DNA from: Mobilitalea sp.
Lineage (GTDB): Bacteria; Bacillota_A; Clostridia; Lachnospirales; Lachnospiraceae
Direction of reading: 5' to 3'
Assembly (NCBI GenBank): GCA_029974875.1
Contig: JARKQP010000720.1
Span: forward strand, 1-20,766
Length of the DNA: 20,766 nt
Shown here one piece after another: positions 2,226 through 20,349 of the stretch (positions within the stretch are counted from its first letter, which is position 1; each line of letters begins with the position of its first letter). The notes beneath the pieces were generated by a model, which worked only from the letters and a program-made list of their open reading frames with translations, did not search any database and had not been told where the DNA came from. Made by a program: the position numbers and the translations under genes.

Positions 2226-3194
2226 TTATTCTGAAAAATCTTTCGCTGCAACATAGCCGCCATAGGAATCAGCACTCCTAACCGCGTCTAAAATAGCGTG
2301 CTCAACTGCTTTGCAGGCAAGAATTCCTACCGCATCCAAAGTAGCTTCTACTTCCCCGGTGCACATAGCAAAGATGGTATCCCCATCATAAATCGTATGA
2401 GCCGGCCGGATACATCTTACAAGGCCATTGTGGGCAACCGCTGCCAGCTTTGTGCACTGCGCTTTGTTTAATTTGGCATTTGAAATTATTGTTCCAATCA
2501 CCGTGTTTCCACTGAATAAATCATTCTTCGTTTGAAATCTTTCTAAGATCACTTTCTCACTATCCGCAAAATGCTTTCCATCCTCCGTGCGGATACCTGC
2601 TATAATTTTACCCGTTTGGTTATCATAGATATCACCGACACAATTTACCGCAATGACGGCTCCAACAACAAGCTCCCCATAGCGAAAAGCAGATCTGCCG
2701 ATTCCACCCTTCATGGCACGTTCTATTCCACAGGTTGTGCCAATGGTCGCACCCGTTCCGGCTCCGTAATTCCCACTTTCCCAAAGAGTGTTTTCAAAGG
2801 CATCCCTGCAGGCAGCATATCCCATCCGGGCGTCCGGCCTTATCCTATAATCACCGCATTTTAAGTCAAACAGGATCGCACTGCAGACATTCGGGACAAC
2901 AGTTACACCTACATCACGGCCTATTTTCTTCTCTTCCAGGTATCTCATTACTCCGCCTGCAGCATCAAGCCCAAAGGTACTCCCTCCGGCAAGCACCACC
3001 GCATGTACTTTTTCCCTATTGTTAACCGGATTCAGGGCATCCGTGTCACGGGTTCCCGGGGATCCTCCCCGTACATCTACGCCACAAACAGCGCCTTTCT
3101 CACAAATAACAACAGTACAGCCTGTAGCTGCTTCCAGGTTCTGGGCCTGTCCAAGCTTGAATCCCTTGATCTCTTTCACGCTTATTGTTTCCAT
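2226..3194 (-). CDS. P1 family (DmpA/NylC-type) peptidase
   Basis: This 322-residue protein belongs to peptidase family S58/P1, N-terminal nucleophile hydrolases that self-cleave to expose a Thr or Ser. Characterised members are L-aminopeptidase D-Ala-esterase/amidase (DmpA), beta-peptidyl aminopeptidases (BapA) and nylon-oligomer hydrolase (NylC). Seen here are the glycine-rich segments VRGGSPGTRDTDALNP (41-56) and VLAGGSTFGLDAAGGVMRYLEE (67-87), GNYGAGTGATIGT (141-153) and the predicted autocleavage site N230-T231 in SGNTVIGTIISNAKL. A TTG at 3207-3209 lies in frame, but ATG at 3194 has GGAG nine bases upstream and sits four bases after the coaC stop. Its ribosome site lies inside the end of coaC, so translation is likely coupled. 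Position as last gene of a coaB-coaC unit is notable because P1 enzymes can release N-terminal beta-amino acids and pantothenate contains beta-alanine. Substrate unknown. Confidence 0.9.
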   Translation of the reverse strand: METISVKEIKGFKLGQAQNLEAATGCTVVICEKGAVCGVDVRGGSPGTRDTDALNPVNNREKVHAVVLAGGSTFGLDAAGGVMRYLEEKKIGRDVGVTVVPNVCSAILFDLKCGDYRIRPDARMGYAACRDAFENTLWESGNYGAGTGATIGTTCGIERAMKGGIGRSAFRYGELVVGAVIAVNCVGDIYDNQTGKIIAGIRTEDGKHFADSEKVILERFQTKNDLFSGNTVIGTIISNAKLNKAQCTKLAAVAHNGLVRCIRPAHTIYDGDTIFAMCTGEVEATLDAVGILACKAVEHAILDAVRSADSYGGYVAAKDFSE

Positions 3195-3198
3195 GTGC

Positions 3199-3738
3199 TT
3201 ATTCTCCAAGTGCTTCTTTTATGGTTTTTACAATTGTCCCGACGTCAGCAAGGGCACCTTTTCCAGTGTCACCGCATGCCAGCAGGGATTCTTTTGGTTC
3301 CACAAATTGATAACCATATTCCATCAGTTTTTTAATATTCTCCTGTGTAATAGGATTTTCATACATCGCCGTATTCATCGCCGGGCAAATGATAATGGGC
3401 TTTTGCTTCACCGCCATAACTACGGTCGAAAGCATGTCATCCGCTATTCCCGATGCGATCTTTCCTATTATGTTGGCAGTGGCAGGCGCAATAACACAGC
3501 AGTCTGCTCTTTGTGCCAGCGAGATATGTCTGACATCCGTATAATAGATTTCTTCAAACATATCCGTATATACTTTATTCTTTGTCAAGGTCTGCAGGGT
3601 AAGAGGCGTGATAAATTTGGTTGCTGAATCAGTCATAATTGCATGCACGAGAATATTACTTTTCGTCAATTGATTCGCAATCTCTGCCGCCTTATATGCA
3701 GCGATACTTCCGGTGATTCCCAATATAATTTCTTTCAT
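3199..3738 (-). CDS. coaC: Phosphopantothenoylcysteine decarboxylase (stand-alone)
   Basis: CoaC is an FMN flavoprotein that decarboxylates 4'-phospho-N-pantothenoylcysteine to 4'-phosphopantetheine in CoA synthesis. The 179-residue protein has the whole HFCD flavoprotein fold: GITGSIAAYKAA (8-19) at the FMN site, the catalytic histidine in RHISLAQRAD, the APATANIIGKIASGIADDML segment, PAMNTAMYENP (the substrate-binding PxMNxxMW-like motif) and LACGDTGKGALAD with the catalytic cysteine. In many bacteria this domain is fused to CoaB; here it is separate, as in streptococci and enterococci. ATG at 3738 is six bases after the coaB stop and has several AAAGGAG-like sites upstream, inside the tandem octamer repeat. 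It lies between coaB and the P1 peptidase gene. Confidence 0.94.
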   Translation of the reverse strand: MKEIILGITGSIAAYKAAEIANQLTKSNILVHAIMTDSATKFITPLTLQTLTKNKVYTDMFEEIYYTDVRHISLAQRADCCVIAPATANIIGKIASGIADDMLSTVVMAVKQKPIIICPAMNTAMYENPITQENIKKLMEYGYQFVEPKESLLACGDTGKGALADVGTIVKTIKEALGE

Positions 3739-3742
3739 ATGC

Positions 3743-3774
3743 CTTTACTCCTTTACTCCTTTGCTCCTTTTCTC
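3743..3774 (-). repeat. Four tandem octamers carrying Shine-Dalgarno-like cores at the coaB/coaC junction
   Basis: On the plus strand the octamers are CTTTACTC, CTTTACTC, CTTTGCTC and CTTTTCTC with no spacer, so on the coding strand GAGNAAAG recurs with an eight-base period and offers four AAAGGAG/AAAAGGAG cores. The array encodes the last residues of CoaB, contains its stop codon and ends just before the coaC start. Only the copy nearest coaC is at normal spacing. Eight is not a multiple of three, so gain or loss of one unit would change the CoaB C-terminus. Confidence 0.85.
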
Positions 3775-4533
3775 CCTTGCTGCCATAGTTGATACAGCTA
3801 TGACTTCTGCTATTTCTTCTTTTGTTGAATATTTTGTATAGTTTTTATTCTCATCAATCAAATAACCGATATGCTGCTCCTTTGATATGTCACGCAGATC
3901 ATTTGCCAGAACAAAGCTGCATTTATTATCTTTCAAAAGACAAAAGGCTGTATCGGTCAGTTCATCAAGCGGTACATGATCCAATAATTTAAATCCCACA
4001 AGGAGAGCCTCCGGTGCAATCGTCTGATATAGAGATATAACTTTTGGGGTTTGTTCCATACATAAAATTAAGTTATTTATATTCGAACGGATTTTTCCAT
4101 CATTACTTATGATAGTATCAGCATTCTGGAATAGGGAAAGGATAAAATCATCCGTCATTTGTTGCTGATTTACATTTGCTGAATCCAATTTAGAATTAAG
4201 GGCGCCCCGAAGCATTGATGCAGAGCTTACTGCCTTCACCCTGTAATCACTGACCGCCATGCTATGGATGATGATATCGATAGAATCATTCTTTATAATA
4301 TTTCTGACAGCATTCTCAAGGCTGACAACGGTATCAACATAGATTATCTCTACTTTCCCTGCTTCCGGCAGAATCGAATTTTTACCACAGACATAATATA
4401 TTTTTGTTATATCCTTTATTTTTTCATACGATCCGGCTATTAAACTTCCAAGCTTTCCAGTTGATGTATTGGAAATACTTCTTACACTATCGATTGGTTC
4501 CGTTGTTCCGCCTGCTGTTATCAGAACCTTCAT
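3745..4533 (-). CDS. coaB: Phosphopantothenate--cysteine ligase (stand-alone)
   Basis: CoaB joins cysteine to 4'-phosphopantothenate using a nucleotide triphosphate, the step before CoaC. The 262-residue protein starts with the nucleotide-binding signature LITAGGTTEPIDSVRSISN followed by STGKLG (4-28). It has IHSMAVSDY (89-97), a DGKIRSN region where CoaB proteins carry basic KI(K/S) residues, TPKVISL, VGFKLL, LANDL and TKEEIAEVI. This order matches the streptococcal-type separate CoaB rather than the C-terminal domain of fused CoaBC. ATG at 4533 has AGGTGG about six bases upstream. First gene of the coaB-coaC-peptidase unit, with a promoter at 4610-4638. The extreme C-terminus (AREKRSKGVKE) is encoded by the octamer array and is probably unstructured. 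Confidence 0.92.
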   Translation of the reverse strand: MKVLITAGGTTEPIDSVRSISNTSTGKLGSLIAGSYEKIKDITKIYYVCGKNSILPEAGKVEIIYVDTVVSLENAVRNIIKNDSIDIIIHSMAVSDYRVKAVSSASMLRGALNSKLDSANVNQQQMTDDFILSLFQNADTIISNDGKIRSNINNLILCMEQTPKVISLYQTIAPEALLVGFKLLDHVPLDELTDTAFCLLKDNKCSFVLANDLRDISKEQHIGYLIDENKNYTKYSTKEEIAEVIAVSTMAAREKRSKGVKE

Positions 4534-4609
4534 ATCATCCCACCTATCACATATTTTCCGTAGATAAAGTACCGCATTTTAAAAAATCTGTCAACTCTAT
4601 TGTTTATCA

Positions 4610-4638
4610 ATTATAACAGTATGCTTCTATATTCTCAA
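4610..4638 (-). promoter_or_regulatory. Sigma-A type promoter for coaB-coaC-peptidase
   Basis: Read on the minus strand, TTGAGA (4638-4633), a 17-base spacer and a perfect TATAAT (4615-4610). Transcription would start near 4603, giving a leader of about 70 bases before coaB. A second, weaker candidate is TTGACA (4594-4589) with TACTTT 17 bases on. Confidence 0.7.
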
Positions 4639-4716
4639 TCTTAAATATATAACGTAAGCCATTAAATCAAATGTCTTCCTGGATGGTACACTTATGAATA
4701 GCAGATAAACTTTGAA

Positions 4717-4766
4717 TTATAATAGCACTACCATTCATATTTCTACAAATGGTAGTGCTGTTATAA
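4717..4766 (-). terminator. Hairpin terminator after the GH3 gene
   Basis: A 19-base arm at 4717-4735 pairs with 4748-4766 (18 of 19 Watson-Crick positions) around a 12-base loop. It begins 14 bases past the GH3 stop codon and separates that gene from coaB downstream. On the minus strand the exit side is A/T-rich rather than a clean T run. Confidence 0.75.
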
Positions 4767-4779
4767 TTAATATTTGATA

Positions 4780-6483
4780 TTATAGCCTGGTATCCCACAT
4801 GCCGCAGAAAGCGTCTACCGGGCTAATTCCTTTGAATTCAGATCTTCCCATGAGCTTATCAACGAGGGCGTCTAAGACCGTATCAGTTGAACTATAGGTG
4901 TTAATATACGTTTTCACTCTTGGCGCATCCAGAAGATGATATGGGTTTTCTACCGAGATAAATATGGTTGGAACCGTATTTATGAAAACAGGTACATTCG
5001 CTCCCATCGGCTGTGCCCATTCGATCCGCACTGTAGTTTGGTTGCTCTTTGTTGCCATATTGGCAAGATAAATAATAAGATCATAGTTGTCAGCAATTTC
5101 ATCATAGCGTGTAGCCAGTCCTTCGTAACTGGGATTCGGCTGGAACACATCAATATCAAAGCCTTCCTTCTCAAGAAGCTTCTTAAAGCCTTCCGCCACA
5201 CCTGCTTTCACGGAATAAGCTATTCCTTGCTGGCTTTCGATGTCATAGTACAGCACCTTCTTATATTTCTCCGGGCTTAGAGGCAGAACCCCTTTTTCTT
5301 CCTTCACTATGGTAACCGCTTTGTCAGCACATTCTGCTGCCCAGGCTTTATGTTCCTCCGTTCCGATTGCCTTCTTCGCATCATTTAAGGTTGGCACTAA
5401 GGTACCTTCTGCTTGTTTCTTATGAAGCTTTAATGCAGCCTTAAGGGCAAGGATTTTTGTTACTGCCTCATTAAGCCTTTCCTTGGTTACGACCCCATCC
5501 TTTACACCGTTTCTCATGTATTCATAATCTTCGTTGACGTTCTTCGTAAATAAGAACATATCACAGCCGGCAGCAATTGCTTGCGGCACCAGCCTTGGCC
5601 TGCCCATCGGAATTGTCATTCCTGCCATGGTGGAGGCATCCGTTACTACCAGACCGTTAAAGCCTAGCTGCTCCTTCAATAGCTTCGTTACTAATTCGTA
5701 GGACAGCGTAGCCGGCAGGATATCCCCATCCTTAATGTCCGGATTAAATTTCTTAGTATATGCAGGCTGCATGATATGACCCACCATGACGGTCAGGGCA
5801 CCTTCTTCAATGCAGGCTTTGTATGCCGCACCATAAGTCTTATCCCAATCCTCACAGGACATGGAGTTGATGGAGGTTACGAGATGCTGGTCCCTCTCAT
5901 CCATGCCATCACCCGGAAAATGCTTAATGGAGGCTGCTACTCCATACTCCTGGACTCCCTTTACATATTGGACGCCCATGCGGCGTACCCGGTCCGGGTC
6001 AGACCCCAGCGTTCTTGTATTGGTAATAGGATTTCTAAAGTTGTAATCAATATCTATAATTGGCGCAAACGCCCAATTTGCTCCGACTGCTGCGCCTTCA
6101 CGGCCGCAAACCACACCCAGCTTATAGGCCATTTCATCATCATCCGTGGCTGCAACCTGCATTGGTGCTCCTATAAAGGTACCTTCCTGCACGATACCAT
6201 TTCCGCCCTTTTCTAAATTTGCTGAAATCAGCATAGGAATCCTTGAATTCTCCTGAAGTGTCCTGACTGAATTTATCGCCTGCTCCGCGGGCATAGGCCT
6301 GCACATTAAGCCGCCCGGTTGATATTTGGTGACAAGGTTTTTCAAATCCTCGTTGTCTGAATATGCCACCAGACAGAATAGCTGGCAGATCTTTTCGTCC
6401 TCCGTCATTCCTTCCAGGGTTTTCTCCACCCATTGTATATCCTCATCCGTTAGGTAAAATGGTTTTGCTTTCAAATCAAACAT
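4780..6483 (-). CDS. Glycoside hydrolase family 3, NagZ-like catalytic domain with C-terminal alpha/beta domain
   Basis: A 567-residue retaining exo-glycosidase without a signal peptide, so cytoplasmic. The TIM barrel spans about 15-350 and an alpha/beta C-terminal domain about 375-560. KHFPGDGMDERDQH (187-200) is the GH3 lysine-histidine motif. It retains the Asp-x-His pair (D198, H200) used as acid/base in beta-N-acetylglucosaminidases of the NagZ subgroup, although the usual KHFPGHG reads KHFPGDG. The nucleophile is D282 in VVTDASTM. The layout resembles two-domain NagZ of Bacillus. ATG at 6483 has AAGGAGG seven bases upstream. Divergent from the AraC-GH39 gene and followed by its own terminator, so probably monocistronic. 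Possible activities are beta-N-acetylglucosaminidase or a related beta-glycosidase acting on oligosaccharides from this locus; sequence alone does not settle which. Confidence 0.88.
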   Translation of the reverse strand: MFDLKAKPFYLTDEDIQWVEKTLEGMTEDEKICQLFCLVAYSDNEDLKNLVTKYQPGGLMCRPMPAEQAINSVRTLQENSRIPMLISANLEKGGNGIVQEGTFIGAPMQVAATDDDEMAYKLGVVCGREGAAVGANWAFAPIIDIDYNFRNPITNTRTLGSDPDRVRRMGVQYVKGVQEYGVAASIKHFPGDGMDERDQHLVTSINSMSCEDWDKTYGAAYKACIEEGALTVMVGHIMQPAYTKKFNPDIKDGDILPATLSYELVTKLLKEQLGFNGLVVTDASTMAGMTIPMGRPRLVPQAIAAGCDMFLFTKNVNEDYEYMRNGVKDGVVTKERLNEAVTKILALKAALKLHKKQAEGTLVPTLNDAKKAIGTEEHKAWAAECADKAVTIVKEEKGVLPLSPEKYKKVLYYDIESQQGIAYSVKAGVAEGFKKLLEKEGFDIDVFQPNPSYEGLATRYDEIADNYDLIIYLANMATKSNQTTVRIEWAQPMGANVPVFINTVPTIFISVENPYHLLDAPRVKTYINTYSSTDTVLDALVDKLMGRSEFKGISPVDAFCGMWDTRL

Positions 6484-6820: not shown

Positions 6821-9325
6821 TTGGACTACATCTATGAATCAATAAAGTTCAGCAAAACCTTTCCGGTCAATTTGTTTGTACATAAGGTTAACTATGTCCA
6901 AAATCATTGGCATGAGTCCATCGAGCTGCTTTTTATTTTGTCCGGCAGGGTGAGCCTTTCCATCGGTAACTTTGTCTACGAGCTTAAGGAAGAGGATATC
7001 ATCGTCATTAATTCGAGTGAAATCCACTCCACCAGCTCTTTGGAGGATAATATAATTTTAGCGTTACAGATTCCCGTAGATTATCTGAAAGCCCACTTTG
7101 AATGTGATGACGGTCTCCGGTTCAACTGCAAATCCTTTCTTTTTTCCGGGAACCAGCAGGACCGGTTTAATCAAATACGGACAAATTTGGCCGAGATGCT
7201 TTGGACCTATAGCAAAAATGAGCGCGGCTCAGAATTCAAGCTGCAAAGCATCTTATTGGAGCTGCTTTATATCCTGTACCGGGACTTTAGCATAGAAGCT
7301 CCGGAGCCTGACATGAAAAGCAACGAAAAATATTTTGACAGGCTGTCAAGAATCATACACTATATCAATGAGAATTATTCCACGGACATTTCGTTGAATT
7401 CACTGGCAAAGCAAGAGTATTTATCCGTTTCCTACCTTTCAAAGTTTTTTAAAAAATATGTGGGCACAACGTTTTTAGATTACTTGAACAGCATACGGTT
7501 AGAGCATGCCGTTAAGGATCTTATTTATACGGAGCATCCTATTTCCCAGATTGTATTACAGAACGGGTTTCCGAATGAAATATCTTTTCTGAATTTATTT
7601 AAGAAGGTTTATGGAGATACACCCAGACAATACCGGAAGAAGACGGCGGGCAATGTAAATGTAACAAAGGTGGATAAAAAATCCTATCTAAATTATTATG
7701 AGTTAGCGAATACCGATATTTTTAAACACCTGCTAAAGTATCTAAAGCCCGATTCCGGCCCGGCCCGGGAAAAACCGGATATCGTTTTTAAAGATTTAGG
7801 GAGTGTTGATGTAAACGCCACCGGGACAAGGATATTCCATAACTGGAAGAACCTTATTACCATCGGCAAGGCAAAGGAGGGACTTATTGCGGAGGTTCAA
7901 AGACAGCTTCAGCAGGTCCAGGCTGAAATTGGTTTTCGATATATCAGGTTCCATGGGATTTTTGATGATGAAATGATGGTATATGAGGAAGACGATATGG
8001 GCAATCCCATCCTAAACTTCTCCTATGTTGACAGCTTATTTCTCTTTTTCCAAAGCATAGGGCTAAGGCCTTTTATCGAATTAGGGTTTATGCCATCAAA
8101 ATTGGCAAAATCCCAAAAGACCGTCTTCTATAACAGCAGCACCATAAGCATGCCAAAGGACATGAAGAAGTGGAACTATCTGGTACGCAGCTTTATCCTT
8201 CACTGCATTGAGCACTTTGGCAAGGAGGAGGTTGAGCAGTGGTATTTTGAATTCTGGAACGAGCCTGATATGAAGCATCTATTTTGGTTCGATTCCGATG
8301 AGGACTATTTAAGCTTTTATGAAAGTACCTACCGTACCATAAAAGGGATATCCTTAAAGCTTAGGCTTGGCGGTCCGGCTACCTTTGTTAATCACGACCA
8401 CGGATTACACTGCCTTAGGAACTATCTCCAATTTTGCAGTGTAAAGGATTGTTCCCCTGATTTTATTTCCATCCACTGTTACCCGGATATTCTTCATCAT
8501 AACCCCTTGAGGAGCACCGGGGATAGCCATCCCGTGAAAACAGTCATATCCGAGGATGAAAATCTCTTGCACCATTCATTGGATGTCATAAGCGGGACGG
8601 TGGAGCACTTTGGTTTTAACAACGGGCTTGTCCATATTACGGAATGGAATTCCACCGCCTGGCACAGGGACTTAACCAACGACACCTGTTACAAGGCCGC
8701 CTATATCGTTAAAAACCTGGTAAACAACATGGATCTGGCAGCAAGCTTTGGATATTGGTCATTAACCGATTTCATGGAAGAAATGCATGCTTCCCATCTT
8801 ACCTTTCACGGCGGATTAGGTCTTATCACCAGCAACGGGTTAAAAAAGGCTGCCTATCATGCATTTTGGATGTTAAATAGATTAGGAACCCATGTCCTCC
8901 AGTCGGGAGACGGATATTATATCACCTCCAGCAATTCAGGTTATCAAGTGCTGTTTTATAATTACTGCCACTTTGACAAGCTATATGGAAGAAGGGATAC
9001 CTCGGCAATAGATTTAGTCAGCCGGTATGATGTGTTCCAGAATGATCATGCCAGGGAAATCAGTTTGCGGTTAAAGGGTTTGATGGAAGGACTTTATTTG
9101 ATTAAAGAATATTGCGTAAACCGCGACCATGGAAGTACCTTTGACCAGTGGGTAGCCATGGGTTCCCCTGAATATCTCTCCAGCGAGGATTTGATGTACC
9201 TTAAGAATAAGTCCGCGCTCAATTATAAAAAGCATAAAGTAAACATCAGCTCTGAATTTCAAATAAATACTGATATTTTACCCCATGAGGTCAAGCTATA
9301 CGAGATCAGCTTGATACCCACTTAA
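6821..9325 (+). CDS. AraC-type regulator fused to a GH39 glycoside hydrolase with intact catalytic residues
   Basis: An 834-residue fusion. Residues about 1-90 look like an AraC-type cupin (NHWHESIELLFILSGRVSLSIG). Residues about 170-275 form the AraC double helix-turn-helix: HYINENYSTDISLNSLAK, then SVSYLSKFFKKYVGTTFLDYLNSIR, then the second helix pair ending TPRQYRKK. From about 320 a GH39 (beta-xylosidase-like) TIM barrel follows, with acid/base E481 in FEFWNEPD and nucleophile E608 in HITEWNSTAW, then a C-terminal beta domain to 834. No signal peptide, so cytoplasmic. It should bind DNA and a xylo-oligosaccharide-like ligand and may also hydrolyse it. The start is TTG with TTAGGAGGAG just upstream. 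Divergent from GH3. GH39 also contains alpha-L-iduronidases and others, so beta-xylosidase activity is inferred. Confidence 0.9.
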   Translation: MDYIYESIKFSKTFPVNLFVHKVNYVQNHWHESIELLFILSGRVSLSIGNFVYELKEEDIIVINSSEIHSTSSLEDNIILALQIPVDYLKAHFECDDGLRFNCKSFLFSGNQQDRFNQIRTNLAEMLWTYSKNERGSEFKLQSILLELLYILYRDFSIEAPEPDMKSNEKYFDRLSRIIHYINENYSTDISLNSLAKQEYLSVSYLSKFFKKYVGTTFLDYLNSIRLEHAVKDLIYTEHPISQIVLQNGFPNEISFLNLFKKVYGDTPRQYRKKTAGNVNVTKVDKKSYLNYYELANTDIFKHLLKYLKPDSGPAREKPDIVFKDLGSVDVNATGTRIFHNWKNLITIGKAKEGLIAEVQRQLQQVQAEIGFRYIRFHGIFDDEMMVYEEDDMGNPILNFSYVDSLFLFFQSIGLRPFIELGFMPSKLAKSQKTVFYNSSTISMPKDMKKWNYLVRSFILHCIEHFGKEEVEQWYFEFWNEPDMKHLFWFDSDEDYLSFYESTYRTIKGISLKLRLGGPATFVNHDHGLHCLRNYLQFCSVKDCSPDFISIHCYPDILHHNPLRSTGDSHPVKTVISEDENLLHHSLDVISGTVEHFGFNNGLVHITEWNSTAWHRDLTNDTCYKAAYIVKNLVNNMDLAASFGYWSLTDFMEEMHASHLTFHGGLGLITSNGLKKAAYHAFWMLNRLGTHVLQSGDGYYITSSNSGYQVLFYNYCHFDKLYGRRDTSAIDLVSRYDVFQNDHAREISLRLKGLMEGLYLIKEYCVNRDHGSTFDQWVAMGSPEYLSSEDLMYLKNKSALNYKKHKVNISSEFQINTDILPHEVKLYEISLIPT

Positions 9326-10477: not shown

Positions 10478-11371
10478 CTATTCCTTCACACCCCCGAGGG
10501 CAATTCCTTTTACAAAATACCTCTGGAAGAAGGGATACAAAACCAGCACCGGCAGTACACCGATTACAGCCATCGCCATCCGGATACTGGTTCCCGGCAG
10601 CTTCATCGTTGTCGTTACGTCCCCCATGGAAGACAATGCGGTGATATTCACCATGATATTATTCAACAATACCTGCAGGCTGTACAGATTCTTATCTGTA
10701 ATGTAATACAATCCGTTTACCCAGTCATTCCAAAAGCCCAGGCCGGACATCAGGCCTACCGTCGCCATGATCGGCAGGGACAGCGGCACGATGATCTTCC
10801 TGTAGATAAAGAATTCTCCTGCCCCGTCAATCTTTGCCGCTTCAATCAGCGCAGGGTGGATATTGTTGGTGAAGTTATTCTTGTACAGGATGATATAGAA
10901 CCCGTTTATAACCAGGTTCGGGAAAATCAATGCCCAGATCGTGTTCTTGATCCCGAAAATATTGGTCCACATCATATAGGAGGGCACGATTCCCCCGTTA
11001 AACAGCATTGTAAAAAACACATAGAAGGTAAACACCTTCCTCCTCGGGTAATCCCTCCTGGATAAGGGATAGGCCATCATTGGCCCGATCAGGAGGCTGA
11101 GCACCACACCTGCGACGGTGATAAAGAAGGTAATCCCATACGCCCGGAAAATGCTGGTCGCATTTGTAACAAATAAGTATTCGTAAGAATACAGGCTGAA
11201 TATGGTCGGCCAGAAGGTATACCCGTATTTCCTTAAAGCATCGTTATCCGTAAAGGAGGATGCAATCAGTATGATGAACGGGAGGATGACCGCCAAAGCC
11301 AGTATGGTCAGGACGATATAGCAGAGTACCTGGAACATGACCGTTCCTTTTCCTTTTACACTTGAATCCAT
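10478..11371 (-). CDS. CUT1 carbohydrate ABC transporter permease (LplC/YtcP-like)
   Basis: Membrane subunit of an oligosaccharide importer. The protein has six hydrophobic segments, and the cytoplasmic EAA loop that contacts the ATPase reads EAAKIDGAGEFFIYRKIIVP (177-196 from the chosen start). The C-terminus RYFVKGIALGGVKE is typical of the YtcP/LplC group. The frame is open upstream to a TTG at 11419 and holds ATGs at 11401, 11392, 11383 and 11371. I chose 11371 because MDSSVKGKGTVMFQ gives the usual short cytoplasmic N-terminus (297 residues), but its ribosome site is poor, so the start is uncertain. Partner of the permease ending at 11525. No ATPase gene is present nearby; CUT1 systems often share a distant MsiK/UgpC-type ATPase. 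Confidence 0.9.
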   Translation of the reverse strand: MDSSVKGKGTVMFQVLCYIVLTILALAVILPFIILIASSFTDNDALRKYGYTFWPTIFSLYSYEYLFVTNATSIFRAYGITFFITVAGVVLSLLIGPMMAYPLSRRDYPRRKVFTFYVFFTMLFNGGIVPSYMMWTNIFGIKNTIWALIFPNLVINGFYIILYKNNFTNNIHPALIEAAKIDGAGEFFIYRKIIVPLSLPIMATVGLMSGLGFWNDWVNGLYYITDKNLYSLQVLLNNIMVNITALSSMGDVTTTMKLPGTSIRMAMAVIGVLPVLVLYPFFQRYFVKGIALGGVKE

Positions 11372-11524
11372 GATTATGTCCATGCCTATCATTATGGGCA
11401 TTGCCCTTACACCGCACAAACAGCTATGAAAGTGCCGGCATGGACCCGATCCCCCCTCCGTTTATTATTTTAATTTCTTTCAATCTTTCACACCTTTCAG
11501 TTGTTACTGGTTTTTTATATATTC

Positions 11525-12883
11525 CTAGAACATTGCATTCTCGCGGTCGACCTTACGGACGAGGGCATTCACAGCCAGGACAACGATAAAGCCTATGATT
11601 GACTGGTACACGCTGGCCGCGGAGGCCTTCCCGATCTGGTTCAGCTGCATCAGGGCACGGTAGACGTAAGTATCAATAGTCTGCGTCGCATTAAACAGCA
11701 CACCCGCATTCATGGGAACCTGGTAGAAGAGCCCAAAATCAGAGTAGAACATCCTGCCCAGCTGCATCAGCAGCAGCGTGATGACCGTCGGCTTCAACAT
11801 CGGCAGTGTGACCTTACGGATCTGCTGCCATTTCGTAGCGCCGTCCACACAGGCGGCCTCATACAGGCTTTTGTCAATGCCAAGGATGGAGGACAGGTAA
11901 ATAATTGACGCATACCCAAGGTTCTTCCACACATTTACGAAGACCAGGATAAAGGGCCAGTAAAACTGGTCGGCATAGAAATCCACTGCCTTGTCCCCCA
12001 GTATCGTTTTATTGATGAAGCCTGCTTCGTTGCTTAAGAAGGCATATACGATATAGGCCACGATGACATAAGAAATCAGCTGGGGCATCAGGATGGTCGT
12101 CTGGAAAAATTTCTTCATAATGCCGGAGAACAGCTCAAAGAGCATGATCCCGACCATGATGCCCAGGATATTGCCAAGTGCGATAAAGGTGAGGTTATAC
12201 AGGATCGTATTCCTCGTCATGATAAATGCATCCTGGGTTAAGAACAGGTACCTGAAATTGTCAATCCCGACCCAGGGGCTTTTTAAAATACCCACACTGT
12301 AGTCAATGCTCTTAAATGCGATAAACATTCCGAACATCGGAAAATAGTTGTTAATCAAAAAATAAAGCGCTCCAGGCAGTACCATAAAATCCAAGGCCGT
12401 AACCACCTTATGCTTATATAAAAAGTATAGTCCCGTGGCAATCAGGATAATTCCAACTGCCGTAATCACGATTACTCCAACGCCCGGGGATACATTCTTT
12501 CCTTCGCTTAATACTGCTTTAATATCCTTGCTTAAAACAACACCCAGCACTAATTCCAATACACCAAAGACCGTCATCAGCATACCGGCCATCCGTACCT
12601 TCATCCGATGGAAGAATAATGCCAATAGAACCACCAGCACTGCAATAACAACAATACCCAAAGCCCAATAATTAACAGGAATCGTTACGGTCCCCCTCAT
12701 TACGCTGGCACCGGTGAGAAATCTTAAGCCCTTGATGCCATACGCCTTTTTGCTATATACATAGCCGGCAAAGGGCAGCATAAAGCTGATTAAGGTCAAC
12801 ACAGCTGCTGCTATCATTGTAATCCGAATCCCGCTATTTAGAGAAAGCAGGTTTTTTTTATTTATCTTACGGTTTTCCTTCAC
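11525..12883 (-). CDS. CUT1 carbohydrate ABC transporter permease (LplB-like) with four-helix N-terminal extension
   Basis: The C-terminal 290 residues are an LplB-type permease. It starts at LDFMVLPGALYFLINNYFPMFGMFIAF (from about 164), a family hallmark, and the EAA loop is EAACVDGATKWQQIRKVTLP (342-361). Before it lie about 160 residues with four predicted membrane helices (about 20-42, 71-91, 98-118, 133-155), absent from ordinary LplB proteins of about 300 residues. I start the gene at GTG 12883, because GGGAGG lies five bases upstream; an ATG at 12925 in the same frame falls inside an RNA hairpin and lacks a ribosome site. Second gene of the operon after the binding protein. The extension may be a fused small membrane protein with a regulatory or assembly role; its function is unknown. 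Confidence 0.9.
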   Translation of the reverse strand: MKENRKINKKNLLSLNSGIRITMIAAAVLTLISFMLPFAGYVYSKKAYGIKGLRFLTGASVMRGTVTIPVNYWALGIVVIAVLVVLLALFFHRMKVRMAGMLMTVFGVLELVLGVVLSKDIKAVLSEGKNVSPGVGVIVITAVGIILIATGLYFLYKHKVVTALDFMVLPGALYFLINNYFPMFGMFIAFKSIDYSVGILKSPWVGIDNFRYLFLTQDAFIMTRNTILYNLTFIALGNILGIMVGIMLFELFSGIMKKFFQTTILMPQLISYVIVAYIVYAFLSNEAGFINKTILGDKAVDFYADQFYWPFILVFVNVWKNLGYASIIYLSSILGIDKSLYEAACVDGATKWQQIRKVTLPMLKPTVITLLLMQLGRMFYSDFGLFYQVPMNAGVLFNATQTIDTYVYRALMQLNQIGKASAASVYQSIIGFIVVLAVNALVRKVDRENAMF

Positions 12884-12904
12884 GTGGACCTCCCTACTCT
12901 CACG

Positions 12905-12954
12905 TATGGCAAGCGGAAGCTGCATAAGCCATTATGCAGCAACCCCTTGCCATA
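12905..12954 (-). other. Intercistronic RNA hairpin between binding-protein and permease genes
   Basis: Arms 12905-12926 and 12933-12954 pair at 19 of 22 positions around a six-base loop. The hairpin starts 19 bases after the binding-protein stop and ends 21 bases before the permease start, and has no T run. This placement is typical of stem-loops that protect the upstream binding-protein message or let only part of transcription continue, giving excess binding protein over permease. Confidence 0.75.
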
Positions 12955-12972
12955 CATAACATTAAACCATTC

Positions 12973-14538
12973 TTATTTCTTTGCTGCCAGCCATTCATCC
13001 AGCTGTCTCTGTACCTCAGCCAGGTACTGCTCTAAGCCTGCATCCTGCATTGCCTTAATGAACTTCTCCTGATAGCCGTCAGGAGCGGAACCGCATACCA
13101 GGGCAGGTCTGTACTGGTCATTGCAAAGGGCGGATAACTGTGCATAAATATCACTTACCTTAGAGGTATCCAGGGAGAACCCGAGGATCGGGGATGCCTC
13201 TGCATTTTCCATGATTGCTTTTCCCTTTGCTGCATCGTTAGGGTCTCCGCCTTCCCATGTATTTGCCAGGAATGCGTTACCGATCAGCTGTACCATGTTG
13301 ATGTAGTAGCCGGAGGTACTCGCGTCAATGCCTTCAGGGAAGCCGATGGTTCCATCATCCTTCTTAACGTAATGGGTACCTTCAACACCATAATCAAATA
13401 AATTAACTATCCTTGCATCCGTAAATAACATGTTCATCAGCTTCACTGCTGCTTCCGGCTCTGTTGCAGAGGACGGGACAGCCCAGGTCATCTGGGTCAG
13501 GGCACCCGTTGAAATAACTCCGTCAGACAGCTTAATATAGGTGAGCTTATCGCCAATGGTAGTATCATAAGAAGACAGCTTTGTTGCATTCATTATAACA
13601 AATGATGTGGCAACATTTGAATCAGCTAATGGTTCACCGGCACCTTCCTTGTTGGCAAGATCCTTATCAATCAGTCCCATGTCATACCATTTCTTTAACA
13701 ATGAAACGCTTTCCAGCCATTCTTCCGTTTCATAACGGCTTACCACCTTAGTAGGATTATCAAAATCAGCGATTGCCGCAATTGCCGTTGCCTCACCTAA
13801 GGTATCATAATGGCCTCCTGTAAGAGCCTTCTGACCGGGATAGGTCAGGTTGACAGTCTTTGCATTTCCGCCTAACGTAATCATTTCCGGATTTGCCTTA
13901 TGTATTTCAACCATTGCATTCTCAACATCCGCCATAGTCTTGATGCTTGCCGGGTCAATACCGGAGTTCTCAAGCACAGAGGTCCTTGCTACCCAGTACA
14001 TATCACTGATCAGATTTTTATAGCAGGGAACTGACAGGATCTTGCCTTCCTTTGTGGTTCCATCCAGGTAAAAGTCCGGAAGTTCCGCTAATAAATCTTT
14101 ACCGTACTCATTTAACAAATCGTTCAAAGGTGTCAGCATGCCCTGTGAAGACATAACAGAATAATGGGCGCTGGCTGCCGGGAACGTGATCATCAGGTCA
14201 ACCTTCTCGTTGTTTGTTACCATCATGGATGCCTGGGTTAAATAGGTTCCCATATCCATAATGTTTAAATGTACCGTTACACCGATCTCCGGTTCCGTAA
14301 TCTTATTGATGGCTTCCTCAACCAAACCGATCTCTGTCGGAACGGTATTCAGTGTCCACATAATTACATTAACATCCTTTAATTCCTGCACCGGCTCTTC
14401 GTCCGGAGCCTCAGTTACTGTACTTGAACCTGGGTCCGTAGGTTGTTTGTCAGTCACGGTCTCCTCTTCCTTTGCACAGGCAGTAAATAATCCTAAAACC
14501 ATACACATTACAAGTAACATTGATAGAAATTTTTTCAT
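12973..14538 (-). CDS. Extracellular solute-binding lipoprotein of a CUT1 sugar ABC transporter (LplA-like, DUF3502-type)
   Basis: A 521-residue lipoprotein that captures an oligosaccharide outside the cell and delivers it to the two permeases encoded downstream. The signal peptide MKKFLSMLLVMCMVLGLFTAC ends in a lipobox-like FTAC with the lipidated cysteine at 21, followed by an acidic/Pro/Ser/Thr-rich linker (about 22-52). The rest fits family 1 solute-binding proteins. The C-terminal part (about 450-521), with LSLDTSKVSD, PDGYQEKFIKAMQDAGLEQYLAEVQRQLDEWLA, matches the DUF3502 pattern of proteins paired with LplB/YtcP permeases. ATG at 14538 has AGGAGGGAAGG upstream. Divergent from the degenerate AraC-GH39 regulator across a 297-base gap, which suggests that regulator controls it. 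Ligand unknown; xylo- or arabinoxylo-oligosaccharides are the context guess. Confidence 0.92.
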   Translation of the reverse strand: MKKFLSMLLVMCMVLGLFTACAKEEETVTDKQPTDPGSSTVTEAPDEEPVQELKDVNVIMWTLNTVPTEIGLVEEAINKITEPEIGVTVHLNIMDMGTYLTQASMMVTNNEKVDLMITFPAASAHYSVMSSQGMLTPLNDLLNEYGKDLLAELPDFYLDGTTKEGKILSVPCYKNLISDMYWVARTSVLENSGIDPASIKTMADVENAMVEIHKANPEMITLGGNAKTVNLTYPGQKALTGGHYDTLGEATAIAAIADFDNPTKVVSRYETEEWLESVSLLKKWYDMGLIDKDLANKEGAGEPLADSNVATSFVIMNATKLSSYDTTIGDKLTYIKLSDGVISTGALTQMTWAVPSSATEPEAAVKLMNMLFTDARIVNLFDYGVEGTHYVKKDDGTIGFPEGIDASTSGYYINMVQLIGNAFLANTWEGGDPNDAAKGKAIMENAEASPILGFSLDTSKVSDIYAQLSALCNDQYRPALVCGSAPDGYQEKFIKAMQDAGLEQYLAEVQRQLDEWLAAKK

Positions 14539-14740
14539 AATCAGCGCCTTCCCTCCTAGGTTATTTGATAATTAATTGCTTCTCCTTTATTATAAATTCC
14601 ATAGCCTCCTGCTTCCTCCCTATTCTTATTCTGTTTTTGTGAAACATGCTATATTTATTTAATTTTATTTCCTTTGCATAGTTGCTGTTGTAAATAAGTT
14701 AAATTATGATATACTATATTTATCTTTTATTGTCTTTATT

Positions 14741-14769
14741 TTGACGATTTTTTTACGCTTTTATATAAT
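14741..14769 (+). promoter_or_regulatory. Sigma-A type promoter of the second AraC-GH39 gene
   Basis: TTGACG (14741-14746), 17-base spacer, TATAAT (14764-14769). Transcription would begin near 14776, about 60 bases before the TTG start. The surrounding 14539-14835 gap is very A/T-rich and must also hold the binding-protein promoter on the minus strand, which I could not place with confidence. Confidence 0.72.
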
Positions 14770-14835
14770 TTATACATTTTGCCCTAGAGCTTTTTTGATT
14801 TTAATGGGTATTTTAACCGGATTGGATGTGATCAT

Positions 14836-17265
14836 TTGGAAAACAATATAGAAAAATTACCATTCAAGAAAATATCGATATTATCCCTGGAGGGTTCCTC
14901 CAGGCAAAATTCCAGCAATTATAATTTTTTATTCATATTAAACGGTTCCATCCGGATCCAGTCCTCCAAGGAAAACTTCTTTCTTGATTCCCAGGATATC
15001 CTGCTGCTGACCCCCAAGGAGGCCTACACCTTTTCCGGGCGGGGCAACACACTCCTGCTGTCCATTGAAATGGACAACAGCTTCCTCTTAAGGAACCAGC
15101 CGGCTTATATAGGAAGCTATATCTGCAATTCTTCCGCCGATAATGACCGGGATTATACGCCCATAAGGAATCTGTTATCACAAATTGCTACGGTTTATTT
15201 CAAAAACGAGGATTATAATAACCTGAACCTCTTTTCCCTGGCCTATCAGCTGATATACTATTTAAACTGCTATCATTTTGAAAAAGCGGAGCAGGCCGGC
15301 ACTCCACATATTAATCCAAAATATTGCGAACGGATCAACGACATATTAACCTATATCAACCAGAATTATGCCAATAATATTACCCTGCAGGACCTGGCGG
15401 ACCAGGTACACCTGACAACTCCCTATCTTTCAAAATTTTTTAAGAACAACTTTCATACTACCTTTAATAACTACCTTAATCATGTCAGGCTAACCTATGC
15501 GGTGGAGGATTTGGTCTATTCAAATGAATCCATCACCTCCATTGCCAACCACAGCGGCTTTGCAAGTATTAATGCCTTCAACAAGCTATTTAAGCTTGAA
15601 TACCATACCACACCGAACAAATACCGGCTCCAGCAGGCAGAAACCAGGTTAAAGCCGGATACCTCCGGTAAGATATCCTTAAAGGAAATGGACTATGATA
15701 CCCATAAGCAGCTCCTGCAGGAATATGCCCAAAGTGACACCGAGCTTCTTCCCAAGTTCCAGTTCCCGTCACAGCGGGAAATCCGGATCAAGGATGTCCA
15801 TGCCTACAAGCAGATCCGGCCCATATGGCATTCCATGATTAACCTCGGTTCCACGCTGCATATTGCAAAACGGGATATCAATAAGCAGATTGCCCTGCTC
15901 CAGGGCAGCATCAAATTCCAATATGCAAGAATTGAGGCCATATTAAATGACTTATTCATTCCCAAGGATCCTGACACCGGAAAATATAATTTCACCGCTT
16001 TTGACCGGGCCATTGACCTATTGCAGACCCAGGACCTCATACCATACCTTGACCTGTCCTACCCGGAGGAAGTCTTGGAGGCGACGGACCAGCGGATTAT
16101 CAGCTACAACCTGGAGAATTATCTCGATATCGTAAATGCGCTGATTATCCACAGCGCTAACAGCTTCGGCATCGACGAGGTTGAAAAGTGGGTTTTTGAA
16201 ATCGGCTATTTCCAGAACCTCGTGATGGACAAAATCGAATCCGTGGATCAATATGTGGACCGTTTTTTCCGCACCTACCAGTTGGTCAAAAACTATCTTC
16301 CCGAAGCAATGGTAGGAGGTATCAACTATCACCTGGCTTATCCCTGGAAGAGGCTGGAGGAGATTTTATCCTCCCTTGACAGACGGGGTTTTAATCCCGA
16401 TTTTATTTCCCTAAGCATATTCCCTTACGAGCTTACGGAAAAAAAGGATGCTCCCCTTACCGAAACAACCGCCTTTGTCTATTCCACGGATGCCAATTTT
16501 GCCAAGAACAAGCTTCAGGCTTTTAAAAAGCAGCTTTCCAAGTATAAGAACCTTGCCCCGAAGATATTCATCAGCGCCCTGGGTCCTTCGATCCGCAAGA
16601 GGAATTATATGAATGATACCTGCTACCAGGCAACCTTTTTTGTAAAAAACACCATTGACCTTCTGGACGAGGTGGACCTGCTTGGATATTACCAGCTATC
16701 GGACTCCGCCTTTGACCGGAATGAAAGCACCCACTTCCTGAACGGGCATAACGGCATCATGAACCAGTACGGCATCAAAAAGCCCGGATGGCTGGCGCTG
16801 GAAGCGATCAACCATAATGGACATTACCTGATCGACAAGGGATCAAAATATATGGTTACAAAGAGCCGCAGGGAAATTTATTACCTGACCATCTGTAATT
16901 ACATCCACGTTAATGATTCCTGCTGCCTTAACGTCCACAAGGAAATGTCCATAAAAGACGCCTACTCCGCCTATGCCGAGCCTAAGACCCAGAAGATCTC
17001 CGTCAGCCTTGGCAATATGGTAAACGGACTTTATCAGGTAATTACCTATAGGATCAACAAGAACCATGGCAGCCTGCTGGATGAATGGAGCAGGATCGGA
17101 TACTGGGAAGAGGTCACCAGAAGGGAATTTGACTATTTTAAAAATATAGTCCAGCCCAAGCGCAATTACCAGTACCTAAACTGTACTGACGGCATGCTGG
17201 AATTTAACCTGCAGCTGGCACCCCATGAAGTGATTTTTATTGAGGTCGCATTGGCGCTGGGGTAA
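14836..17265 (+). CDS. AraC-type regulator fused to a degenerate (catalytically inactive) GH39 domain
   Basis: An 809-residue paralogue of the fusion at 6821-9325, with the same layout: short cupin-like start (about 1-80, lacking the HWH of its relative), AraC helix-turn-helix (about 160-270: LTYINQNYANNITLQDLADQ, TTPYLSKFFKNNFHTTFNNY, TTPNKYRLQ), then a GH39-like barrel and C-terminal beta domain. Alignment by eye anchored on VEKWVFE and NDTCY places F459 where the acid/base glutamate should be (FEIGYFQN against FEFWNEPD), and A581 where the nucleophile should be (FISALG against HITEWN). Both catalytic residues are gone while the fold signatures persist, so it should bind but not cleave a sugar. 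TTG start at 14836 with a weak ribosome site. Divergent from the transporter operon, which it probably regulates. Confidence 0.88.
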   Translation: MENNIEKLPFKKISILSLEGSSRQNSSNYNFLFILNGSIRIQSSKENFFLDSQDILLLTPKEAYTFSGRGNTLLLSIEMDNSFLLRNQPAYIGSYICNSSADNDRDYTPIRNLLSQIATVYFKNEDYNNLNLFSLAYQLIYYLNCYHFEKAEQAGTPHINPKYCERINDILTYINQNYANNITLQDLADQVHLTTPYLSKFFKNNFHTTFNNYLNHVRLTYAVEDLVYSNESITSIANHSGFASINAFNKLFKLEYHTTPNKYRLQQAETRLKPDTSGKISLKEMDYDTHKQLLQEYAQSDTELLPKFQFPSQREIRIKDVHAYKQIRPIWHSMINLGSTLHIAKRDINKQIALLQGSIKFQYARIEAILNDLFIPKDPDTGKYNFTAFDRAIDLLQTQDLIPYLDLSYPEEVLEATDQRIISYNLENYLDIVNALIIHSANSFGIDEVEKWVFEIGYFQNLVMDKIESVDQYVDRFFRTYQLVKNYLPEAMVGGINYHLAYPWKRLEEILSSLDRRGFNPDFISLSIFPYELTEKKDAPLTETTAFVYSTDANFAKNKLQAFKKQLSKYKNLAPKIFISALGPSIRKRNYMNDTCYQATFFVKNTIDLLDEVDLLGYYQLSDSAFDRNESTHFLNGHNGIMNQYGIKKPGWLALEAINHNGHYLIDKGSKYMVTKSRREIYYLTICNYIHVNDSCCLNVHKEMSIKDAYSAYAEPKTQKISVSLGNMVNGLYQVITYRINKNHGSLLDEWSRIGYWEEVTRREFDYFKNIVQPKRNYQYLNCTDGMLEFNLQLAPHEVIFIEVALALG

Positions 17266-17343: not shown

Positions 17344-18126
17344 TCATCTATTCCCCCGGGTTCCATACTGGCTCGGAGGACACCCGCAGATTTTTTTAAA
17401 GCATCTGGAGAAGTGGTAAATATCATTGAACCCTGTCATCCTGGCAATCTGTCCGATCTGCAGCGCCTCATTCATCAGAAGATACTTTGCCTTATCAATC
17501 CGGGCATTGATTAGCTCTGTCTTCGGGGAGGCGTAGAAGAATTTTTGGTAATAAGCGTAGACCTGGCTCTTTTCCAGATGTAATATCCGGCACATCCGTT
17601 CAATTGGCCAATCCTCCCCGCAATAAGTAAGCATCCTCAGACGCAGGGACTGCAGTTCAGAATATAGGGATGCATTAGCAGGAACCTCCTGCCTGTTCCT
17701 TTGAAAATTGCGGTCCAGATAAATCAAAAGCTGCCGTAAATAGGTATCAATCTGTTCTTCAAAGTGAAGGGGCTTTGTCACAAATTCTTTATGTATATTT
17801 TTTATATACCAATTGATATCCTCCACCCCTTCCGGGTAAAAGACAGTATTAAGCGGTATTTCAAACCGGTTCCCTCCCTCTTCCGCATCAAAAAAATGAA
17901 CATAACTATTGTAGAATTCCCCTACCGCCCGGTAGCTCTGCGCAAAGCCCGGAGTATACAGAATGCATGCGCCTGCCTTTACAGGAACCCTTTCCCCATT
18001 TATCTCAAAATCCATTGGCGCAAAAATCAATAAAAATAAATAGCTCGCACTGCCATTTGGTCTGTAAATAATATCCCCGGCCGGATTGTGGACATTATAA
18101 CCACAGTATTCAACGGTATACCTCAT
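17344..18126 (-). CDS. AraC family transcriptional regulator (cupin plus helix-turn-helix)
   Basis: A 260-residue regulator with an N-terminal cupin-like sensor (about 1-110: PAGDIIYRPNGSASYLFLLIFAPM, VPVKAGACILYTPG) and a C-terminal AraC DNA-binding domain (about 160-256). The second helix-turn-helix, IGQIARMTGFNDIYHFSRCFKKICGCPPSQY, is typical. The frame extends to a TTG at 18147, but ATG at 18126 has AGGGG eight bases upstream and is preferred. Divergent from the GH51 arabinofuranosidase gene with 191 bases between, so it is the likely activator of that gene, probably in response to arabinose or arabinoxylan fragments. Unlike the two other AraC-type proteins in the window it carries no glycosidase domain. 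Confidence 0.9.
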   Translation of the reverse strand: MRYTVEYCGYNVHNPAGDIIYRPNGSASYLFLLIFAPMDFEINGERVPVKAGACILYTPGFAQSYRAVGEFYNSYVHFFDAEEGGNRFEIPLNTVFYPEGVEDINWYIKNIHKEFVTKPLHFEEQIDTYLRQLLIYLDRNFQRNRQEVPANASLYSELQSLRLRMLTYCGEDWPIERMCRILHLEKSQVYAYYQKFFYASPKTELINARIDKAKYLLMNEALQIGQIARMTGFNDIYHFSRCFKKICGCPPSQYGTRGNR

Positions 18127-18187
18127 CCTGCATTCCCCTTCTTTCAATCAGTGAATTTATTGTACAATAGCCCTACATCCAATTCCT

Positions 18188-18296: not shown

Positions 18297-19817
<1,521 letters not shown>

Positions 19818-19825
19818 GAAGCAGG

Positions 19826-19865
19826 CATCCCCCGTTATCTTGAATCGTTTAGAAAACAGGGGGTG
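19826..19865 (+). terminator. Possible terminator after GH51
   Basis: CATCCCCCGTT (19826-19836) can pair with AACAGGGGGTG (19855-19865), 10 of 11 positions including one wobble, with an 18-base loop. No T run follows, so this may only be a 3'-end stem. Confidence 0.35.
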
Positions 19866-19909
19866 GAAGATCTTTGGGCTACATTCGGATAGCCTTTTCT
19901 GGAAAACAC

Positions 19910-19938
19910 TTGAAATCCTTCATGAATTATGCTATATT
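19910..19938 (+). promoter_or_regulatory. Promoter of the antisense antitoxin RNA
   Basis: TTGAAA (19910-19915), 17-base spacer, TATATT (19933-19938). Transcription would start near 19945 and end at the terminator at 20008-20040, with no open frame of note in between. Confidence 0.68.
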
Positions 19939-19950
19939 AAACATAAAGAA

Positions 19951-19975
19951 AGCACCCACTCCAAAGGTGGATGCT
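19951..19975 (-). terminator. Probable terminator of the toxin mRNA
   Basis: The arms AGCACCCAC / GTGGATGCT form a nine-position stem with one mismatch and a seven-base loop. On the minus strand it is followed by the U-rich TTCTTTATGTTT. If used, the toxin message overlaps the whole antisense RNA. Confidence 0.5.
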
Positions 19976-20007
19976 CCGAGCATAGGTCAAATGTCCTTAC
20001 GGACACC

Positions 20008-20040
20008 GCCTATCCTGTGGCCGACAGGATAGGCATTTTT
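20008..20040 (+). terminator. Intrinsic terminator of the antisense RNA
   Basis: Perfect 11-bp stem GCCTATCCTGT (20008-20018) with its complement at 20024-20034, five-base loop, then TTTTT within two bases. It has no T run on the minus strand. Confidence 0.88.
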
Positions 20041-20155
20041 ATTTACGCTTTTTTCTCTTATCGAGAAAGGTAAGCAACGCAATAATCAAACCGCCAAAGG
20101 ACATCAGCAAAGCCAATATTCCGAGAAAGATCGTTATAATCTCATAAGCTGTCAT
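20039..20155 (-). CDS. Holin-like type I toxin (small hydrophobic peptide)
   Basis: A 38-residue peptide, MTAYEIITIFLGILALLMSFG then GLIIALLTFLDKRKKRK. It consists of a short MTxYE-type start, one membrane helix (about 6-31) and a basic tail, which is the pattern of the putative holin-like toxin / TxpA-type family that depolarises the membrane from inside. ATG at 20155 has GGGAGGTGG upstream at good spacing. It has its own promoter (20246-20274), a leader of about 84 bases that can hide the ribosome site, and a convergent antisense RNA across its 3' end. Not part of the neighbouring sugar genes. A non-toxic small membrane peptide is the alternative, but the antisense RNA argues for a toxin. 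Confidence 0.82.
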   Translation of the reverse strand: MTAYEIITIFLGILALLMSFGGLIIALLTFLDKRKKRK

Positions 20156-20163
20156 ATGCGCCA

Positions 20164-20213
20164 CCTCCCTTCCTATGTATTCCGGGAAACCGGTTTTCCA
20201 TTGGCTCGGGAGG
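20164..20213 (-). promoter_or_regulatory. Ribosome-site-sequestering pairing in the toxin leader
   Basis: On the minus strand the ribosome site GGGAGG (20169-20164) is exactly complementary to CCTCCC (20213-20208) upstream in the same leader. Between them is a nested self-complementary element centred on AAACCGGTTT (20187-20196). The fold would block ribosome entry, as known for several type I toxin mRNAs. Confidence 0.5.
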
Positions 20214-20245
20214 CTACCACCCTGTCATGGGTACTTTCATGAGGA

Positions 20246-20274
20246 ATTTTACCACATTTTTCCACTATTTTCAA
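20246..20274 (-). promoter_or_regulatory. Promoter of the toxin gene
   Basis: On the minus strand TTGAAA (20274-20269), 17-base spacer ending in TGG, and TAAAAT (20251-20246): a near-consensus promoter with an extended -10. The start would be near 20239. Confidence 0.7.
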
Positions 20275-20349
20275 CAGAATTTATTTGAGTATATATTATA
20301 TTCCCCTATAAGCATAGACAGCTTCCATGAATCCGGGTCTGTAATCCCA

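Follow-up and report, generated by a model that had tools for sequence, protein, structure and literature searches.

A pseudo-glycosidase module in an AraC-family regulator of Mobilitalea: a GH39 barrel that lacks both catalytic glutamates

What use might a transcription regulator have for a glycosidase barrel without the residues for cutting sugars? The question is raised by an open reading frame (ORF) in 20,766 nucleotides of Mobilitalea sp. DNA (GenBank contig JARKQP010000720.1), the whole of which we call the window. The frame is complete, from a TTG start at 14836 to a stop at 17265, and its product of 809 amino acids is an AraC regulator that carries a pseudo-glycosidase module and stands at the far end of a family whose catalytic residues are often missing. 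We propose that it acts as a one-component system controlling the divergently encoded oligosaccharide importer and that its barrel would serve as an accessory, non-catalytic receptor; ligand binding and mechanism we infer, and we judge this proposal as apt to prove right as wrong. The parts of the gene are as follows.

14836..17265, + strand: AraC-GH39 regulator, both GH39 catalytic glutamates absent (TTG start, Pfam, BLASTP, MAFFT)
14851..15294, + strand: AraC-type regulatory (cupin-like) domain, residues 6-153 (fold match only, without a Pfam match)
15316..15648, + strand: AraC double helix-turn-helix DNA-binding domain, residues 161-271 (Pfam, structure model)
15769..16830, + strand: GH39 (beta/alpha)8 barrel, catalytically degenerate, residues 312-665 (Pfam, model, fold matches)
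15928..15930, + strand: codon of R365, the retained pocket arginine (XynB residue 52 by counting), invariant in the seven-row clade of the regulator
16210..16212, + strand: codon of F459, acid/base glutamate position (BLASTP, MAFFT, model)
16576..16578, + strand: codon of A581, nucleophile glutamate position (BLASTP, MAFFT, model)
16690..16701, + strand: Y619, Q620, L621 and S622, closing beta8; three of them (Y619, Q620, S622) do not vary in the seven-row clade and differ from the residues commonest in the active set
16831..17262, + strand: C-terminal GH39 accessory domain, residues 666-809 (fold matches, conservation)

The Pfam domains of the protein are HTH_18 (residues 187-264, 63.8 bits against a cut-off of 33.6), HTH_AraC and Glyco_hydro_39 (residues 316-778, 95.3 bits; an AraC-GH39 paralogue at 6821-9325 of the window scores 287.6). 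The DNA-binding region is also matched by fold over residues 159-273 and hence has the double helix-turn-helix of AraC/XylS regulators. The barrel is GH39 by fold as well as by profile: the C-terminal 500 residues match the fold of the beta-xylosidases 1px8 and 2bs9. Residues 6-153 match the regulatory domains of AraC and BgaR and so identify an AraC-type N-terminal domain; this match comes from a separate model of residues 1-280, which was built on a three-row alignment and has a predicted local distance difference test (pLDDT) score of 68, and the full model is more confident there. As modelled, these residues already form a normal AraC-type sensor and dimerisation domain, to which the barrel is an additional module.

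The acid/base glutamate E481 and the nucleophile E608 of the paralogue were first read as F459 and A581 in the regulator, amid conserved flanking signatures. Pairwise BLASTP and MAFFT agree on both substitutions, and pairwise BLASTP recovers the flanks. Counted through the alignment, E481 is residue 160 of Thermoanaerobacterium saccharolyticum XynB, which we take to be its acid/base (R376 and H378 are residues 52 and 54). Clan-A glycosidases carry the acid/base at beta4 and the nucleophile at beta7; in the structure model F459 directly follows the strand 453-457 and A581 lies within the strand 576-582. Among the paralogue's relatives (120 listed, of 493 found), 119 carry both glutamates and one, P0089, has K and E, whereas the regulator and its relatives P0002-P0004 (62-78% identical; P0004 is a fragment) have F or Y and A or S, so the loss goes beyond chance. 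Misalignment of the catalytic residues was considered and is rejected for this protein, for which a further, independent pairwise pass gives the same result as BLASTP and MAFFT. Judged from its sequence, the barrel has lost catalysis.

The replacement extends into the rest of the pocket. The available text of PMC7242879 lists the -1 subsite residues of XacXynB; placed on the paralogue by counting through alignments, most residues invariant among the paralogue's relatives appear to be those of this subsite. R376, H378, N480, H552, Y554, W646 and E653 are kept in all 120 listed relatives, and F436, F488 and E654 are also invariant in a 16-row active subset. In the regulator, H378 corresponds to E367, F436 to I422, N480 to Y458, H552 to S527, Y554 to F529, W646 to Y619, E653 to F626 and E654 to D627, and the F488 column is gapped. 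The gapped columns are 437-444 and 487-489, and an aromatic loop is deleted. Because R376 (as R365) is the only one of these residues retained, the canonical xylose pocket is gone, beyond the two catalytic acids. The initial annotation had supposed that the barrel was kept for its sugar pocket; the barrel fold is indeed there, but the canonical GH39 pocket is not.

How isolated is such a protein? We collected 102 distinct AraC-GH39 fusions of at least 600 amino acids, among them both window proteins and L001, a near-copy of the regulator. This census is not random: members were drawn by similarity to the regulator or by PF01229 in 17 genomes, and it is biased towards the regulator. Both glutamates are found in 19 fusions, the nucleophile only in 66, the acid/base only in 2 and neither in 15; the commonest letters are Asp at the acid/base (30) and Glu at the nucleophile (85), and N480, E481 and E608 occur together in 10. 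A separate pairwise pass over 101 fusions, without the reference, barely changes these totals (62 nucleophile only, 21 both, 15 neither, 3 acid/base only), with letter-for-letter agreement in 76 of the 101. Single class calls in distant rows are uncertain, since a glutamate lies within two residues of the position in 22 of 81 fusions that lack the acid/base. Most of the sampled fusions are thus without the acid/base but keep the nucleophile glutamate, which probably serves them as a sugar-contacting residue. The genome in which L001 lies, G001, contains 14 AraC-GH39 frames (804-867 amino acids) plus three separate GH39 ORFs; another genome yielded 21 fusions. In G001's family, of which 299 genomes were sampled, a match over more than 400 residues of the regulator was counted, from a table, in at least 28, a lower bound because usually at most three candidates per genome were scored. 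The architecture had been called unusual, with no characterised example; it belongs to a large family and is no singleton, though that family is barely described.

Close to the regulator itself the yield was small. The scan of genome contigs gave one locus, L001, which remained the nearest relative in a search of 34 genomes of the genus; a profile search with the clade alignment, scoring the 7994 candidates richest in shared words, returned no further GH39 fusions, and no neighbourhood was found for P0002 and P0003.

From a 126-row alignment stripped of nine pocket columns we built a quick tree (LG+G4, without a mixture model). Explaining the four states on it takes 23 changes; the state with neither glutamate takes 10, or no fewer than 9 when starred branches alone are counted. 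The tree carries a warning of long branches that meet, and several rows, P0009 included, are such branches. As it is unrooted, gains of glutamate cannot be told from losses. The regulator falls in a starred set of six rows, all with neither glutamate (with L001, P0002, P0003, P0005 and P0006), inside a starred set of ten that adds L101_7175, L082_6994 and P0009 (neither) and P0007 (aligned E and S). These recurrent catalytic losses suggest a conversion of enzyme pockets to the sensing of sugars that enter the cell.

Head-to-tail pairs of AraC-GH39 genes are found at six loci (L047, L144, L084, L085, L099 and L147), the second frame lying -118 to 15 nucleotides from the preceding stop. At each, one member belongs to the tree's starred 98 set and the other to its starred 99 set, so that these look like old, co-inherited pairs, whose products perhaps form heterodimers. 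At two of the loci, L047 and L144, a partner with both glutamates is paired with one that has neither.

The other features of the window bear on what the regulator may control.

6821..9325, + strand: AraC-GH39 paralogue with E481, E608 and the -1 subsite residues present (Pfam, BLASTP, MAFFT)
10478..11419, - strand: ATP-binding cassette (ABC) importer permease B (Pfam)
11525..12925, - strand: ABC importer permease A (Pfam)
12973..14538, - strand: solute-binding protein (SBP_bac_1 and DUF3502), the divergent neighbour (Pfam)
14539..14835, no strand: intergenic region of 297 bp between the regulator and the divergent importer (gap analysis)
17344..18147, - strand: second AraC-family regulator, 267 amino acids, without GH39 (Pfam)
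18318..19817, + strand: GH51-type alpha-L-arabinofuranosidase (NCBIfam ArfA, 761 bits against a cut-off of 625)

Transcription of the genes for the binding protein and both permeases runs in the opposite direction, away from that of the regulator. In the intergenic region a candidate promoter, TTGACG-17-TATAAT (14741-14769, + strand, sigma-70-like, 11 of 12 positions), points towards the regulator; five sigma-70-like sites occur there against 2.3 +/- 1.3 in shuffles. A 13-nucleotide direct repeat (14646-14658 and 14711-14723, spacing 65 nucleotides) is kept with the same spacing in L001. In a gap so AT-rich both the promoter and the repeat may be due to chance, and as sequence motifs neither demonstrates a binding site.

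Gene order from the importer to GH51 is the same in L001, where a GH127 beta-L-arabinofuranosidase gene (in the stretch 15095-17805 of L001) is added between GH51 and LacI; it is absent from 19818-20349 of the window. Genes for HydF and a flavin mononucleotide (FMN) reductase flank different genes at the two loci (window 2226-6483 and 6821-9325; L001 2034-5543): in L001 a DUF4143 gene stands between them, without the intact paralogue, GH3, coaBC-like genes or peptidase S58. Among the loci compared, the closest binding protein apart from that of L001 and its copy L010 is beside L101_7175, a relative with both glutamates lost and 34% identity; another ORF separates the two genes. At L082 (4280-5520) a binding-protein gene beside a regulator that has lost both glutamates is split into two overlapping frames by a frameshift or sequencing error. 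The window paralogue joins intact catalytic residues to an AraC regulator; going by its sequence, it possibly combines enzyme activity with control of transcription, and its inducer may be something that it itself degrades or produces.

The mechanism that we have in mind for the regulator has three modules: an AraC-type regulatory and dimerisation domain, the double helix-turn-helix, and the GH39 barrel with its accessory domain. The barrel would have been retained without catalysis, as an accessory receptor or allosteric clamp; its signal would be an oligosaccharide brought in by import, most likely one containing arabinofuranosides, and its response would alter helix-turn-helix occupancy at 14539-14835, the region shared with the importer genes. 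In evolutionary terms, the regulator's clade would have gone beyond loss of the acid/base and rebuilt the pocket, though the order of these events is conjectural on an unrooted tree. The initial annotation made the glycosidase fold the regulator's ligand pocket; an accessory receptor is still our best reading of the barrel, but it would not be the sole sensor, since residues 6-153 already form an AraC-type sensor domain.

Might the gene simply be decaying towards a pseudogene after a recent loss? Its low GH39 score (95 bits) and the loss of most -1 subsite residues would fit, but the L001 ORF, on a contig of a Clostridiales metagenome-assembled genome, is 95% identical and has the same F and A, and loss of both glutamates is common to relatives at 40-68% identity. 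The ratio of nonsynonymous to synonymous rates (dN/dS, Nei-Gojobori, this one pair of genomes) is 0.060 for the gene, 0.069 for the barrel, 0.028 for the helix-turn-helix and 0.031 for the C-terminal part; GH51 gives 0.059 in the same pair and three importer genes 0.018-0.123. On dN/dS decay is rejected, and we grant it next to no credence. Hydrolysis by acids elsewhere in the barrel, or a weak enzyme that destroys the inducer, seems to us very improbable. E367, D406 and E532 are invariant in the regulator, P0002 and P0003 on the C-terminal face, yet D406 alone of the 48 listed face positions is always acidic across the seven-row clade, and the regulator has no acid at the end of beta4 or beta7. 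Nor is D406 a relocated catalytic residue, since all 16 active rows carry a glutamate there (E420) besides the catalytic pair.

A more serious rival, though we still think it unlikely, is that the effector binds the N-terminal cupin domain only and that the GH39 part is a ligand-free structural or oligomerisation module holding a dimer or tetramer together. The N-terminal fold matches favour it; the accessory domain is the best-conserved section among the regulator, P0002 and P0003 (0.75), and C-terminal extensions promote GH39 oligomerisation according to the available text of PMC7242879. Conservation of the pocket was followed on its face, for which each barrel strand contributes its final two residues and the four that follow. 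In these three close orthologues face identity is 0.80 against 0.61 in the rest of the barrel, a value reached by 4 of 2000 random sets, and across the whole family the face is above the rest in 35 of 36 disjoint pairs. Seven face residues are invariant in the seven-row clade (R365, L405, G495, Y531, Y619, Q620 and S622); five of them (all but L405 and G495) lie at strand ends on the pocket side and speak against a purely structural role. So does the nucleophile-only majority, in which the face is clearly above the opposite rim (0.757 against 0.617, n=15; both-glutamate pairs 0.759 against 0.604, n=12); members of this nucleophile-only majority probably still bind ligand in the pocket. Several observations weigh against a receptor in the regulator's own clade. 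Pairs with both glutamates lost have 0.755 for the face and 0.740 for the opposite rim (n=4), the rim being higher in two (L001-P0003, 0.75 face and 0.77 rim; L101-L082, 0.52 and 0.60) and the face in the others (regulator-P0002, 0.83 and 0.75; L144-L047, 0.92 and 0.83). Over the seven-row clade the face reaches 0.46 against 0.39 for the barrel (379 of 10000 permutations), and former catalytic positions drift: the F459 column reads F F Y Q F T V, which leaves hardly any constraint on the acid/base position. Of 69 shifted sets, one (moved by four residues towards the strands) exceeds the face at 0.854. Of the 40 fusions whose flank extends for 6 kb or more, only 17 have importer homologues inside that distance (a raw rate, without background control), and the ordinary AraC sensor domain seen in the models could perform all the sensing. 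The expectation that orthologues would conserve the pocket thus holds for close ones relative to the rest of the barrel, not clearly relative to the opposite rim. The opposite-rim control and the one higher shifted set weaken the case for ligand binding from pocket conservation, and for the regulator such binding is, on its sequence, plausible but unproven.

A wider suggestion can be made more tentatively, as something possible on which we would not insist. AraC-GH39 proteins may be an expanded sensor repertoire of bacteria, 14 in one genome and 21 collected from another, in which active sites were repeatedly converted to non-catalytic oligosaccharide receptors. The acid/base would have been lost first and the nucleophile glutamate mostly kept as a ligand contact, a few clades, including that of the regulator, would have rebuilt the pocket for new ligands, AryK of Staphylococcus aureus would be an unrecognised member, and some paralogues would work as fixed tandem pairs. 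If correct, a glycosidase active site repeatedly became a regulator's sensor within one bacterial group, and as intact, half-dead and dead members occur together in single genomes, the steps from enzyme to receptor would be directly testable. It would also offer a means of guessing which glycans these bacteria sense.

How does the regulator compare with known systems? To our knowledge, AraC and the lactose sensor BgaR are without a C-terminal glycosidase barrel. With the GH39 beta-xylosidases (T. saccharolyticum XynB, 1px8; Geobacillus stearothermophilus XynB1, 2bs9) it shares the fold of the C-terminal 500 residues, accessory domain included, but it has both catalytic glutamates and most -1 subsite residues replaced and is fused to AraC modules. 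Fusions with both glutamates, the paralogue and its relatives, have the same domain order and similar length, at 26% identity to the regulator end to end. The methods of PMC8543862, in the available text, mention that certain GH39 xylosidases begin with an AraC-like domain, and in the available parts of the open-licence literature the GH39 half of such proteins is nowhere treated as a sensor. A precedent for a transcription factor with an inactive glycosidase domain is plant BZR1-BAM7/BAM8 with its beta-amylase domain, where, in the available text of PMC6394054, one catalytic glutamate is conserved even among inactive members. The DNA-binding and glycosidase families are unrelated to those of the regulator, whose Pfam domains include neither BZR1 nor beta-amylase, and the analogy is functional only. 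A further comparison is with AryK (NCBIfam NF047455), the best NCBIfam match for both window fusions, whose profile aligns with the regulator over residues 20-484; at 164.7 bits against an equivalog cut-off of 850 the regulator is not AryK itself. Positions 1-754 of the 759 in this profile align with another AraC-GH39 fusion (L050, G001:C55:236564-238927; R at the acid/base position, E at the nucleophile), so the C-terminal half of AryK is probably a GH39-like barrel, as far as profile alignment can tell. According to PMC3922988, AryK increases the expression of exotoxins in S. aureus; the terms xylosidase and glycosyl hydrolase are absent from the available text of that paper. If our wider suggestion holds, it supplies a structural hypothesis for that half of AryK, for which the literature, in its available parts, names no fold.
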